Origin: a virus
Virus record (IMG/VR): IMGVR_UViG_3300007538_000177
Coordinates: 1-24,261 of that record
DNA length: 24,261 nucleotides
Reading direction: 5' to 3' (one strand)
A model generated the notes under the pieces. The model saw nothing but the letters and a program-made list of their open reading frames with translations, searched no databases and was not told the DNA's origin. Shown one piece after another: positions 5,940-24,261 of this stretch. A program made the position numbers and the translations under genes. Position 1 is the first letter of the stretch; the number at the start of each line of letters is the position of its first letter.

Positions 5940-6128
5940 ATGAAAGTTAAATTTTTGATAAACGCAAGCGGTAAGTTTAACCTGAGCTACGGCCCTGGAG
6001 ACGTTGCCGAACTTGACGCCAAGCAGGCAGAGCTTTTGATTGAGGCAGGAGCTTGCGAGGTTGTAGCTGAGGAAGTAGCAGAAAAGGCAGAAAAGGCAGA
6101 AAAGCCCAAAACGATTAAGAAAAAATAA
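5940..6128 (+). CDS. Small hypothetical protein after the capsid gene
   Basis: A 62-aa protein with a beta-rich N-terminus (KVKFLINASGKFNLSYGPGDVAEL) and a segment KQAELLIEAGACEVV, then a repetitive charged tail made of AEK triplets (residues about 48-56) ending in poly-Lys. Similar small proteins with the pattern 'GDVAELDAKQAELLIEAG' often lie between the capsid and connector genes of tailed phages, but I know no established function. Three bases separate it from the connector gene. It could help head completion; that is inference from position. Confidence 0.7.
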   Translation: MKVKFLINASGKFNLSYGPGDVAELDAKQAELLIEAGACEVVAEEVAEKAEKAEKPKTIKKK

Positions 6129-19293: not shown

Positions 19294-19896
19294 TTAATCT
19301 GCCGAAAGTGCACTATTTAGCCCCTCGCTTGTTTTAGGCGCTTCTGAGGCTATATCTCTTGCCTCCTCTTGAGTCTGTAAGCCCATGAGTATTTCGGGGG
19401 CGTAGAGGCGTCCAAAAAAGGCCGCAGCACGATAGCGCAGCATTAAGTCGGGCATAGTTTTCCACTTTGAACCCGCTTTAGTAGCCCAGCCTTCGCTAGC
19501 TGCCATATCTAGGGTAACAGTAGGCCCTTCGATAAGCTCGCCCGTAGCCAGCTCAGTAGCAACCGCTTTACAGCTCTTGCCGTCTGAGATAAATTTAAGA
19601 GCAGAGAAGCGCCCGCAGCTATTTAGTGCAGCAATAATAAAAGAGCTAGACCAAGATGGGCGCCCGTGTATTACGTGCAAGTTCTGCATAACCATTAAGG
19701 GGCTAGCGCCTATACGCTGCGCAATTTCAAGCGCTACAAGCGTATTGGGAATGTTGCCCCGATAGCTTTGGGGGATTAGATCGCTAGAGCTTAGGGCTTT
19801 GGCTACACGTTGCGCGTGGTCAAAGTTTGAGAGGCTCAGGGGTGCAGCGGTTTCTACTTGCTCGACTGCTTGGGTTTGGGTTTCTTTCTTTTCCAT
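19294..19896 (-). CDS. RecT-like single-strand DNA annealing protein
   Basis: A 200-aa protein that probably anneals complementary single strands during phage recombination. The central part, residues about 50-100 (NTLVALEIAQRIGASPLMVM, then HGRPSWSSSFIIAALNSCGRFSAL), and residues 143-176 (SKWKTMPDLMLRYRAAAFFGRL onward) are typical of a phage family I associate with RecT. The N-terminus is Gln/Glu-rich and disordered, and the C-terminus (EAPKTSEGLNSALSAD) is acidic. It follows the RecE-like exonuclease gene in one minus-strand unit with a 4-base gap, as in the classical nuclease-annealing pairs. Start CAT on the plus strand at 19894-19896 follows an A-rich leader. Assignment relies on this pairing plus sequence pattern. 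Confidence 0.72.
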   Translation of the reverse strand: MEKKETQTQAVEQVETAAPLSLSNFDHAQRVAKALSSSDLIPQSYRGNIPNTLVALEIAQRIGASPLMVMQNLHVIHGRPSWSSSFIIAALNSCGRFSALKFISDGKSCKAVATELATGELIEGPTVTLDMAASEGWATKAGSKWKTMPDLMLRYRAAAFFGRLYAPEILMGLQTQEEARDIASEAPKTSEGLNSALSAD

Positions 19897-19900
19897 GTTA

Positions 19901-20716
19901 TTAAAGTGTTTTAGTAATGTATTCGGGTAATAAAAGCGCCTCGACCTTGTCGCTATACCCTGGCCAAGTGTTAGACTCTAGGCAATGGGCATAGGTTAAA
20001 AGGTTGGCAAGATAGCAAGAGCGGCCGTAACTCAGCTCTTGATCTTCATACAAATAAAGGCTAACAAGGTAAGGCGCTGACTTTTCAACGGCAATAAATA
20101 CGAAGCCCTCGACCTCTTCGCCTTTGGCTTGCTTCCAGCCGTCGCAGTAAAACGCAGCTTGGACGTGGTAGCGGTATTTAAAAGCCGAGCGGCTAAACCC
20201 GTGCTTACTTGCGTCCTCAGTAGTTTTAAGGTCTACAATGTAGCGAGAGCCGTTTACGTAAGTAACAAAGTCGGGGCGAGCCTTGCAGTTTACCCCAGTT
20301 TGAGGGTCTTGCCAGCTTATAGTACTTTCAGCTTCGCCCTGGGCTAGTAGTTTAGCGGCTAAAGGGTGCGCTTTAACCGACTCGGCTACCTTAAGACACT
20401 GGGCAAAGTCTTCAGCGTTTAAGTAGATCTTATCGGGGTGCTCAAGATAGAAAGCGGCTAAAGTCTCTTTACCTTCTTTAGTTCTGCGGTCTACGTCGGG
20501 AAAGGCGCAATATTGTAAAGCAAAGCGCTCAGGCTCTAAGACGGCGCAATGTACAGCGCTGCCTATCTCTAAAGCCTTGCTGCTTTTTTCTTGGTACTCG
20601 CCGCTGAGATACTTATAGAAGTAATGGGCTGGGCTTTTTTCGATAAGATCCAGCCCGCTTTTGCTTATGTGGCTGGTGTCTTTGTGGTAGTCGTGGTTAG
20701 AAAGTTCGTTTAACAT
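19901..20716 (-). CDS. RecE-like exonuclease, PD-(D/E)XK family
   Basis: A 271-aa nuclease that would degrade one strand of duplex DNA and hand 3' single strands to the RecT-like protein. Motifs of the RecE/exonuclease VIII-like group are complete: GSAVH at 52-56 (His56), RPDF with Asp149 (CKARPDF), VDLKTTEDA with Asp162 and Lys164, and YHVQAAFY at 183-190 (Gln186, Tyr190). The length matches the isolated C-terminal nuclease domain common in phages, rather than the much longer E. coli RecE. It is transcribed from a divergent promoter region shared with the small HTH gene, and its promoter element lies 4 bases before the ATG. Confidence 0.9.
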   Translation of the reverse strand: MLNELSNHDYHKDTSHISKSGLDLIEKSPAHYFYKYLSGEYQEKSSKALEIGSAVHCAVLEPERFALQYCAFPDVDRRTKEGKETLAAFYLEHPDKIYLNAEDFAQCLKVAESVKAHPLAAKLLAQGEAESTISWQDPQTGVNCKARPDFVTYVNGSRYIVDLKTTEDASKHGFSRSAFKYRYHVQAAFYCDGWKQAKGEEVEGFVFIAVEKSAPYLVSLYLYEDQELSYGRSCYLANLLTYAHCLESNTWPGYSDKVEALLLPEYITKTL

Positions 20717-20717
20717 A

Positions 20718-20749
20718 TTGCAAACTTACGCAAAAAAGAGTTAAATTTG
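20718..20749 (+). promoter_or_regulatory. Putative promoter of the HTH-SSB unit
   Basis: TAAATTTG (20742-20749) fully matches TAnnTTTG and ends 4 bases (CACT) before ATG 20754; TTG at 20718-20720 lies 21 bases upstream. The -33 element falls between the recE -7 box and the recE ATG, so RNA polymerase could not occupy both promoters at once. Confidence 0.6.
20721..20728 (-). promoter_or_regulatory. Putative -7 promoter element of recE/recT
   Basis: On the minus strand TAAGTTTG, a full match to TAnnTTTG, ends 4 bases (CAAT) before the recE ATG. No good TTG element appears 19-21 bases upstream, where the plus-strand promoter lies. The expected mRNA would start at the ATG. Confidence 0.5.
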
Positions 20750-20753
20750 CACT

Positions 20754-20933
20754 ATGGACTTAGGAAAAGAAAACGTAGCCAAGGAGCTTAAAAAGCTTTG
20801 TATAGATAAAAACACAAGCTTAACAAAAATATGCAAGGCGGCCAAAGTGGACCGCTCGACCTTAAGACGCTGGGAGGTCCAAGAGCCGCAGAGCGTTGTT
20901 ATATTGCGCAAGTTATTAGATCAACTAAAATAA
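20754..20933 (+). CDS. Small helix-turn-helix protein, 59 aa
   Basis: A short gene (ATG 20754 to TAA 20931-20933). Residues 22-40 (SLTKICKAAKVDRSTLRRW) form a clear helix-turn-helix of the XRE/Cro or transposase-like type, flanked by basic helices. The protein is small enough to be only the DNA-binding domain, as in Cro. It is first in the plus-strand unit, lies directly at the overlapping divergent promoters and is followed by the SSB gene after 4 bases, so it is a likely regulator of recE/recT and of its own unit. No binding site was proven. Confidence 0.72.
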   Translation: MDLGKENVAKELKKLCIDKNTSLTKICKAAKVDRSTLRRWEVQEPQSVVILRKLLDQLK

Positions 20934-20937
20934 GAAT

Positions 20938-21306
20938 ATGTTAAAGTTAAATTTTACTGGAAACCTTGGCAAAGATGCCGAAACAAAGACAATGCAAGAC
21001 GGAACGCTGCAAATACGTTTTAACGTAGCAGTAAACCAAGGGCGAGACAAGGAGCCGCTTTGGGTAGGCTGCGCTTATTACAGAGACGCGAACCAAGGGG
21101 CGGCGCTTGCCCAATACTTAAAGAAAGGTAAAAGCGTGTTAATCGAGGGCTTGCCAAGCGTAAGCGAATACGAGGGCAAGAGTTATCTTAATTGCCGAGT
21201 GCAGTTTATCGAGCTCTTGGGCGGGGCTGAAGGTGGCACTAAACAAGCCGCTAAACCAGTTGCTCAACCCGCTAGCTCTGACCTTTCTAATGATCTACCT
21301 TTTTAA
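20938..21306 (+). CDS. ssb: Single-stranded DNA-binding protein
   Basis: A 122-aa OB-fold protein that coats single-stranded DNA in replication and recombination. The start LKLNFTGNLGKDAETKTMQDG and the strand ...IRFNVAVNQGRDKEPLWVGCAY are typical of bacterial and phage SSBs, as is YLKKGKSVLIEGLPSVSEYEGKSYLNCRVQFIELLG. The last residues, DLSNDLPF, form the acidic tail with terminal Pro-Phe that binds partner proteins. Its tail linker is short (about 20 residues). It is divergent from the recE/recT pair, with which it may cooperate. Confidence 0.95.
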   Translation: MLKLNFTGNLGKDAETKTMQDGTLQIRFNVAVNQGRDKEPLWVGCAYYRDANQGAALAQYLKKGKSVLIEGLPSVSEYEGKSYLNCRVQFIELLGGAEGGTKQAAKPVAQPASSDLSNDLPF

Positions 21307-21315
21307 CGTAACAGA

Positions 21316-21579
21316 ATGGGAGGCTTTGACTATTTCGACCCAGGCGTAACTTACGATAAGGACGCGGTAAACAACCCTAGCCACTACACTCAGGGTAAAG
21401 TAGAAGCTATCGAGGCAATAGAAAGCGCCTTAAGCTTAGACGAATACCGAGGCTTTTTAAAGGGCCAAGTATTAAAGTACGTTTGGCGAGCTGGGAAGAA
21501 AGGCGAGAATAAGACGGCAGAAGATCTAGCCAAAGCCGACTTTTATCTAAAGAGGTTGCAAAAGTTAGGCAGTCTCTAA
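21316..21579 (+). CDS. DUF3310-like protein (SaV/T7 gp1.7-type)
   Basis: An 87-aa protein with the DUF3310 pattern: NPSHYTQGKVEAIEAIESAL (residues 20-39), then GFLKGQVLKYVWRAGKKG and EDLAKADFYLKRL. Members include T7 gp1.7, a nucleotide kinase-like protein, and many phage proteins of unknown role. If the function holds, it may act in nucleotide metabolism of the infected cell. It is the last gene before a terminator, 9 bases after the SSB stop. Confidence 0.85.
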   Translation: MGGFDYFDPGVTYDKDAVNNPSHYTQGKVEAIEAIESALSLDEYRGFLKGQVLKYVWRAGKKGENKTAEDLAKADFYLKRLQKLGSL

Positions 21580-23385: not shown

Positions 23386-23526
23386 GAGTATTATTTTAGC
23401 GGCAGCCCTGGCGGCTTGAAGGCGTCGGCTTGGGCTTACTCTTGTAGCAGAAGGGTAATATGCTATAAAAATCTTGGCCCGTTGGGTTTCGGAAGCTGCT
23501 ACCTCCGTTACTCTTCGGGCTTTTTT
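23384..23526 (+). ncRNA. Candidate structured leader or regulatory RNA
   Basis: The 151-base gap before the replication gene is full of complementary segments. AAGAGTA (23384-23390) pairs with TACTCTT (23437-23443); AGCCC (23404-23408) with GGGCT (23432-23436) inside it; GTAGCAG (23444-23450) with CTGCTAC (23496-23502). A second copy of TTACTCTTC (23508-23516) can pair with GAAGGGTAA (23450-23458), and GCCCG (23477-23481) with CGGGC (23516-23520) before a T6 run, a terminator shape with a large loop. These pairings exclude one another in part, as in attenuators. No tRNA fold fits. Transcription and function are not shown. Confidence 0.45.
23516..23526 (+). terminator. 3' arm and T-run of a large-loop terminator
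   Basis: CGGGC followed by TTTTTT; its partner GCCCG lies 34 bases upstream (23477-23481). It would close the 22068-23385 unit or act as the switchable part of the structured leader. The large loop makes it an uncertain terminator. Confidence 0.4.
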
Positions 23527-23536
23527 ATTGCACAAA

Positions 23537-24261
23537 ATGAAACAGCAAAAAGACGCTTACTACTTTTCCCACGATAGTAACGCAAGACACGACGAGCGTA
23601 TTTTAGAACTACGCGACGCTATGGGGTGGGAAGGTTACGGCCTTTACTGGGCCTTTATTGAAATGATGCGGGAGAGCTCAGACTTTACCGTAACAAAAAA
23701 GCCAGCGGTATTAAGGCAAGCTTTAGGCATTGAAAAAGAGAAGCTAGAGCAGTTTTTGCAGCTCTGCCTTGAGTTCGGTTTATTTACTCAAGACGGCGAA
23801 AGGCTTTACTCTGAGAGCCTTAAGCGCCGAATGGATCAAATGAATGAGCAACGAGAGAAGTTTAGAGAAGCGGGCCGTAAAGGAGGAAAAGTAAGCCAGG
23901 CTCAAGCCACCCTTAAGCCAGGCTCAAGCGATGCTCAAGCAATTAAAGAAAATCAAATTAATCAAATTAATAAAATCAATAAAAGCAGTGAGGAGGATTT
24001 TGTTTTTGAGGGATTTAAGACCGAGAAACTAGCGCAGCGATCTAAAAAGCCTGGGCCGACTTGGGGGCGAGTGCATGATATTTTCATACAATACGGTTTA
24101 GCTGAGCACGTGGCCGAGGATTTTTGGGATAGAATGAGCGACAACAATTGGAACAACGGCACAGTAAAGGACTGGGAGGCTTTTACCGAAAAAGCAGCAG
24201 ACAAGGCGCAGCTTCAGGCTTACGGCTGCCGCTTAGGACATAAGCCAGACCCTAATTATAA
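23537..24261 (+). CDS. Replication protein, DUF4373-like N-terminus (partial)
   Basis: A frame from ATG 23537 that runs off the window end without a stop (241 codons plus two bases). The N-terminus (KDAYYFSHDSNARHDERILELRDAMGWEGYGLYWAFIEMM) is the winged-helix of DUF4373/Lin1244-Lin1753-like proteins, which are replication initiators or replisome organisers in phages. A linker rich in Gln/Ser/Asn (about residues 115-150, including KGGKVSQAQATLKPGSS and QINQINKINK) follows, then a C-terminal domain with FIQYGLAEHVAEDFWDRMSDNNWNNGTVKDWEAF, also typical. It probably loads helicase at the phage origin, which may lie in its own linker-coding DNA. No other gene of the window has a replication-initiation role. 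Confidence 0.82.
   Translation, partial: MKQQKDAYYFSHDSNARHDERILELRDAMGWEGYGLYWAFIEMMRESSDFTVTKKPAVLRQALGIEKEKLEQFLQLCLEFGLFTQDGERLYSESLKRRMDQMNEQREKFREAGRKGGKVSQAQATLKPGSSDAQAIKENQINQINKINKSSEEDFVFEGFKTEKLAQRSKKPGPTWGRVHDIFIQYGLAEHVAEDFWDRMSDNNWNNGTVKDWEAFTEKAADKAQLQAYGCRLGHKPDPNY
23889..23943 (+). repeat. 11-bp-periodic repeats (candidate iterons)
   Basis: The core GCTCAAGC occurs at 23900, 23922 and 23933, with a degenerate copy CCTTAAGC at 23911 and a weaker one (AAGTAAGC) at 23889, all in steps of 11 bases. The 16-base block TAAGCCAGGCTCAAGC is present exactly at 23892-23907 and 23914-23929. Because 11 and 22 are not multiples of three, the copies are read in different frames, so the repetition is at the DNA level and not in the protein. 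Confidence 0.75.
23941..23986 (+). other. A+T-rich tract next to the repeats (candidate DNA unwinding element)
   Basis: A 46-base stretch of almost only A and T, with the 9-base unit ATCAAATTA repeated in tandem (23952-23960, 23961-23969), follows the iteron-like repeats immediately. It encodes the KENQINQINKINK linker. Placement beside iterons is what an origin of replication would show, as in lambda gene O. Confidence 0.6.

Follow-up and report, generated by a model that had tools for sequence, protein, structure and literature searches.

A recurrent 11-bp iteron array in the linker-coding DNA of Lin1244_N-type phage initiator genes: a probable intragenic replication origin

The viral DNA analysed here (IMG/VR record IMGVR_UViG_3300007538_000177, 24,261 nucleotides, referred to as the window) ends within a replication initiator gene that carries direct repeats followed by A+T-rich DNA in the middle of its coding sequence. 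Does this DNA merely encode a stretch of protein, or is it also the site at which the phage begins to replicate? The original prediction was that it is the origin and that the protein encoded around it binds it. The evidence described below supports this, and the linker-coding DNA is very likely an intragenic phage replication origin whose iterons are bound by the N domain of the same gene's product; binding, melting, helicase recruitment and origin use are inferred, not measured.

The assignment to the Lin1244_N (DUF4373) type held. The protein matches PF14297 (Lin1244_N) with an E-value of 4.5e-13 (50.2 bits against a curated Pfam cut-off of 25) and phrog_2562, "replication initiation protein", with an E-value of 8e-18. 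In the AlphaFold2 model the N domain has a helix-helix-helix-strand-strand-helix fold with pLDDT mostly above 90, the winged helix being modelled confidently over residues 20-116. The pLDDT is low over residues 117-171, the linker is predicted to be disordered, and the C domain is modelled with low confidence. On this model the repeats encode the linker between the winged-helix and C-terminal domains, as had been claimed (Table 1). Searches by sequence and by fold for a solved homologue of the initiator gave generic winged-helix matches only and no close structure. The contig terminates within the gene; in the close relative L002, whose C domain is 97% identical, the gene stops a few codons past the window's contig end and is directly followed by DnaB. 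DnaB, DnaC-like loader or primase genes follow Lin1244_N initiator genes in relatives, and L439 has a similar open frame downstream of its initiator gene. Further upstream, the window has a recombination and replication block (19294-21579), in which minus-strand genes for a RecT-like annealing protein and exonuclease VIII are followed by plus-strand genes for SSB and a DUF3310 protein.

Table 1. Features of the initiator locus at the end of the window
Feature	Position	Strand	Basis or remark
Terminator-like RNA hairpin and T run	23476-23526	+	Directly before the start codon; pairing checked by script
Lin1244_N (DUF4373)-type replication initiator gene	23537-24261	+	Pfam and PHROGs matches; 3' end beyond contig end
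N-terminal winged-helix domain, residues 1-116	23537-23884	+	AlphaFold2; predicted iteron binder
Linker-coding DNA, residues about 118-154	23888-23998	+	Predicted disorder in protein
Iteron array, 11-bp units	23889-23943	+	Direct reading, Tandem Repeats Finder, recoding test
A+T-rich tract, candidate DNA unwinding element	23941-23986	+	40 of 46 A/T; directly 3' of iterons
C-terminal domain	23999-24261	+	97% identical to L002; exchanged independently of N domain and iterons

The array consists of 11-bp units starting at 23893, 23904, 23915 and 23926, ending in a partial unit at 23937 and preceded by a degenerate one upstream of 23893; from 23893 onwards the units read AAGCCAGGCTC, AAGCCACCCTT, AAGCCAGGCTC, AAGCGATGCTC and AAGCAAT. 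Read directly from the sequence, the core GCTCAAGC is exact at 23900, 23922 and 23933, and degenerate versions occupy the same 11-bp register at 23889 (AAGTAAGC) and 23911 (CCTTAAGC). The predicted coordinates and 11-bp periodicity therefore held, with the qualification that these last two units are only degenerate at the quoted core; the two exact 16-base copies 22 bp apart (TAAGCCAGGCTCAAGC, starting at 23892 and 23914) were also confirmed. Tandem Repeats Finder reports 23893-23940 as the top array in the window, with scores of 61 at period 11 and 68 at period 22. Over lags of 7-40 bp, the block at 23889 has the highest score in the 24 kb, 23.7; in 100 first-order Markov sequences the maximum averaged 16.1 +/- 1.7 and never exceeded 21.2. 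Synonymous recoding of the linker peptide matched the lag-11 score in none of 5000 trials and the lag-22 score in 4 of 5000, and the claim that protein function does not explain the repeats also held. The iteron block is real, beyond both chance and peptide coding. The iteron motif is significantly self-complementary (p 0.01). Another repeat in the window, GCAGAAAAG, occurs in three perfect copies at 6078-6104, in the intergenic gap that follows the major head protein gene.

The adjoining tract was predicted to follow the repeats without a gap over 46 bases, and does so. It contains only six G/C, and equal A+T-richness is found at just two other places in the window. The tract has a periodicity of its own, a 9-bp AATCAAATT series.

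A search for the same kind of period and tract in homologues had been proposed along with the original prediction as a way to check it, and its outcome was positive. A total of 406 homologous Lin1244_N loci were gathered from phage, viral-contig and genome collections, representing 154 non-redundant domains, and the linkers of 146 non-redundant genes were tested, each against synonymous recodings of its own gene. The linkers' z averaged 1.88 at lag 11 and, at lag 22, 1.14. Once purine and A/T runs were masked, the best lag was 11 in 57 genes and 22 in 21, together 78 of 146, against a chance expectation of about 4-5 genes each; neighbouring lags are near zero. In the same recoding test the C-terminal coding DNA has no period (z 0.05) and the N-domain coding DNA has a weak peak (z 0.74). 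The phages and prophages whose genes have a detectable site belong to very different bacteria. Subfamily iterons differ widely in sequence (for example GCGAACGCAAT, CCACCCAATCG, AAAGGGTCATG and AAGCCAGGCTC), yet the period is still 11, and motif self-complementarity is significant in 41% of genes, the window's among them. About half of the Lin1244_N genes lack a clear 11/22-bp block, and some use about 21 bp. As a positive control, the same method gives 23-bp intragenic iterons in all eight RepA_N matches, and therefore separates the two families as well. Periodicity is weak or absent in 11 Phage_rep_org_N genes, and none of the four genomes tried gave a match for a comparison with DUF1376. 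Some Lin1244_N proteins, of about 127-130 residues, stand alone without linker, iterons or C domain (L037, L045, L048, L062, L066 and L089).

A+T-rich DNA likewise follows the iterons across the family. The G+C fraction is 0.47 in the last iteron but drops to 0.28 and then 0.24 over the following 40 nt, and purines climb to 0.80 in the region after the last iteron. A second series of periods in the homologues' linkers, at lags 5, 10, 15, 20 and 25, arises because many relatives carry a purine-rich AAAGN tract after the repeats, unlike the 9-bp type of the window. These AAAGN pentamers exceed synonymous expectation in L011, L019, L063, L330, L344 and many others, where they encode KESKVKES-type peptides.

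A second iteron cluster, placed within the N-domain coding DNA some 140-210 nt upstream of its end, was considered as a family-wide feature and rejected. Matches to each gene's own motif are 10-20 times background in this region, but the peptide accounts for much of this (27 observed against 18.1 +/- 2.4 expected), and synonymous divergence there is 0.192 against 0.172 in the flanks, showing no overall conservation. No clear second cluster was seen in the N-domain coding DNA of the window. In L139, L163, L155, L165 and L359, of the TGCGAACGC-type lineage, the 11-bp motif also lies within the winged-helix coding DNA, at about nt 130-200 of the gene; a second cluster confined to this lineage remains a possibility, partly explained by the peptide.

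Periodicity can also come about without any DNA function. The repeats could be low-complexity DNA born of slippage, or the product of selection on the linker peptide, and disordered linkers do tolerate repeats. Periods of 11 and 22 are not codon-based, however, and exceed synonymous recoding, and distant subfamilies with different sequences share the same period. Synonymous change is moreover suppressed. Third positions of conserved codons were compared between the iteron-plus-tract core and its flanks in 46 pairs of related genes from 17 families, with no gene used twice and identical genes removed. Divergence is 6.3% (0.063) in the core against 17.2% (0.172) in the flanks, 2.7-fold less; the core is below the flanks in 42 of 46 pairs; with a single pair taken per family, this holds for 15 of 17 families. 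The two exceptional families are the exchanged pair formed by the window and L002, and one with just eight sites. At four-fold sites the values are 0.04-0.06 within the core and about 0.2-0.4 in the surrounding sequence. Both iterons and tract are shown to be constrained across the family, the tract as much as the iterons. Disappearance of the repeats at synonymous positions had been named beforehand as a refutation of the origin, and the opposite was found. Slippage or peptide selection alone is strongly disfavoured and very unlikely, and a DNA-level function of the core is very likely for the family. The window gene itself falls outside this test because its sole close relative, L002, carries an exchanged cassette.

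That exchange bears on which protein domain the DNA belongs to. Across the family, iteron motif similarity correlates with N-domain similarity (Spearman 0.64) more than with C-domain similarity (0.25). The window and L002 have upstream DNA in common and nearly identical C domains, but their N domains are 33% identical and their iterons are different; the differing segment begins at about the start codon and extends through the A+T tract, and the exchange junction lies directly after the tract. L433, found through its shared leader, has an L002-type N domain (73%) and iterons with a C domain unlike that of L002 (32% over a short alignment), and L439 combines an L433-type N domain and identical iterons with yet another C domain. 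When domains shuffle, the repeats follow the N-terminal winged-helix domain and not the C-terminal domain, and in close relatives N domain, repeats and tract are exchanged as one cassette. A similar natural exchange of N domain and origin, of about 500 bp, is reported to distinguish plasmid pPR9 from pSK41 (PMC5703833).

Direct repeats next to A+T-rich DNA also occur at partition, packaging and recombination sites, and the array might be one of these and not an origin. Against this, it lies inside an initiator gene, which many phages have next to helicase genes, and the array's sequence varies with the DNA-binding domain of the initiator; this reading is very unlikely. In the EF62phi genome (L429) a separate 8-bp/16-bp repeat array is present near position 2008, between parA-like and DnaD-like genes, and might possibly be a partition site or a second origin.

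The gene is preceded by a conserved structured leader (23396-23526 of the window). Within it, GUAGCAG (23444-23450) can pair with CUGCUAC (23496-23502) inside the terminator-like hairpin; in L002, L433, L434 and L439 the corresponding pair, with compensatory changes, is GUAGGAG/CUCCUAC. In these four relatives the type of hairpin matches the N-domain/iteron type. The leader could be an attenuator or pseudoknot controlling initiator expression, although this is no more than a possibility. It is also one of two points in favour of a third alternative, that the iterons are an operator (an autoregulatory, copy-number or handcuffing site) and replication starts elsewhere; the other is that iteron-binding initiators can also regulate themselves. 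An operator about 350 bp into the gene, however, needs no adjoining conserved A+T-rich tract, and a tract as constrained as the iterons fits a melting zone. The operator reading is considered unlikely.

The origin reading, which is preferred, can be put as follows. The N-terminal winged helix would bind the four to five 11-bp iterons of the gene that encodes it, which are spaced about one helical turn apart and are probably used as 22-bp pairs. The nucleoprotein complex would then melt the adjacent A+T-rich tract, and the C domain, held on the disordered linker, would recruit the replicative helicase, encoded immediately downstream in relatives. Because the iteron is 11 bp, not a multiple of three, the linker peptide would be essentially translated origin DNA, and the proposal that the Gln/Ser linkers of such proteins are a by-product of DNA iterons is consistent with the data. 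No binding or replication data, and no report of a DUF4373/Lin1244 origin, were found in the literature searched. GC skew, suggested as a further check, was uninformative: among relatives' genomes, that of mEp515 has its cumulative minimum at the gene and those of EF62phi and Athena1 do not. The skew is confounded by gene orientation and was dropped as origin evidence. The phage genome in the window is not complete, which leaves room for an origin elsewhere.

Lambda, SPP1 and RepA_N plasmids are textbook cases of intragenic iteron origins. In lambda, iterons and then an A+T-rich tract lie in the middle of the initiator gene O (PMC7466680), and the window likewise has direct repeats followed by an A+T-rich tract inside an initiator gene. 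The predicted resemblance held for this layout only, the window protein being from another family and its iterons differing in sequence and in spacing, with 11-bp units. No lambda O-type homology was met: Lin1244_N is the only Pfam match above threshold, and the PHROGs matches are to phrog_2562 and unnamed families. In SPP1, oriL has direct repeats in the gp38 initiator gene together with an A+T-rich unwinding element, and genes for the helicase loader and helicase come next (PMC6316719). The window's array and tract are similarly placed within the initiator gene (gene 38 in SPP1). The sole Pfam match of the window protein, Lin1244_N, speaks only indirectly to any sequence relationship with gp38, and no second origin in the style of SPP1 was found in this window. 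The RepA_N family (PF06970), with pSK41 rep as an example, shares a winged-helix N domain, Rep boxes in the middle of rep that encode the linker, and a separate C domain, of DnaD-like type in RepA_N; the origin in this family is known to be central in rep (PMC5703833). The RepA_N proteins are plasmid initiators, whereas the window gene is a phage gene with no Pfam match to PF06970, and their 23-bp iterons (8 of 8 matches) differ from its 11-bp unit, even though its lag-22 score is also high.

What is new is a large, little-studied family of phage initiators with its own 11/22-bp period and a measurable synonymous constraint. A bolder reading, towards which the evidence as a whole tips only slightly when all its parts are taken jointly, is that the leader hairpin, the winged-helix domain, the 11-bp iterons that match it and the A+T tract make up a replication-specificity cassette, complete in itself and about 0.5 kb long, which passes between phages, across bacterial phyla, and is joined to interchangeable C domains; the linker peptides of the family would be translated origin DNA, and origins could be read from the gene. 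The finding accounts for the odd NANAMQTHSxxNAxKESKVKES-type linkers. It would predict, from sequence alone, the origin and its cognate binding domain in many phages and prophages of Bacillota, Bacteroidota, Proteobacteria and others, and the many natural pairs of domain and DNA site may yield rules of recognition.
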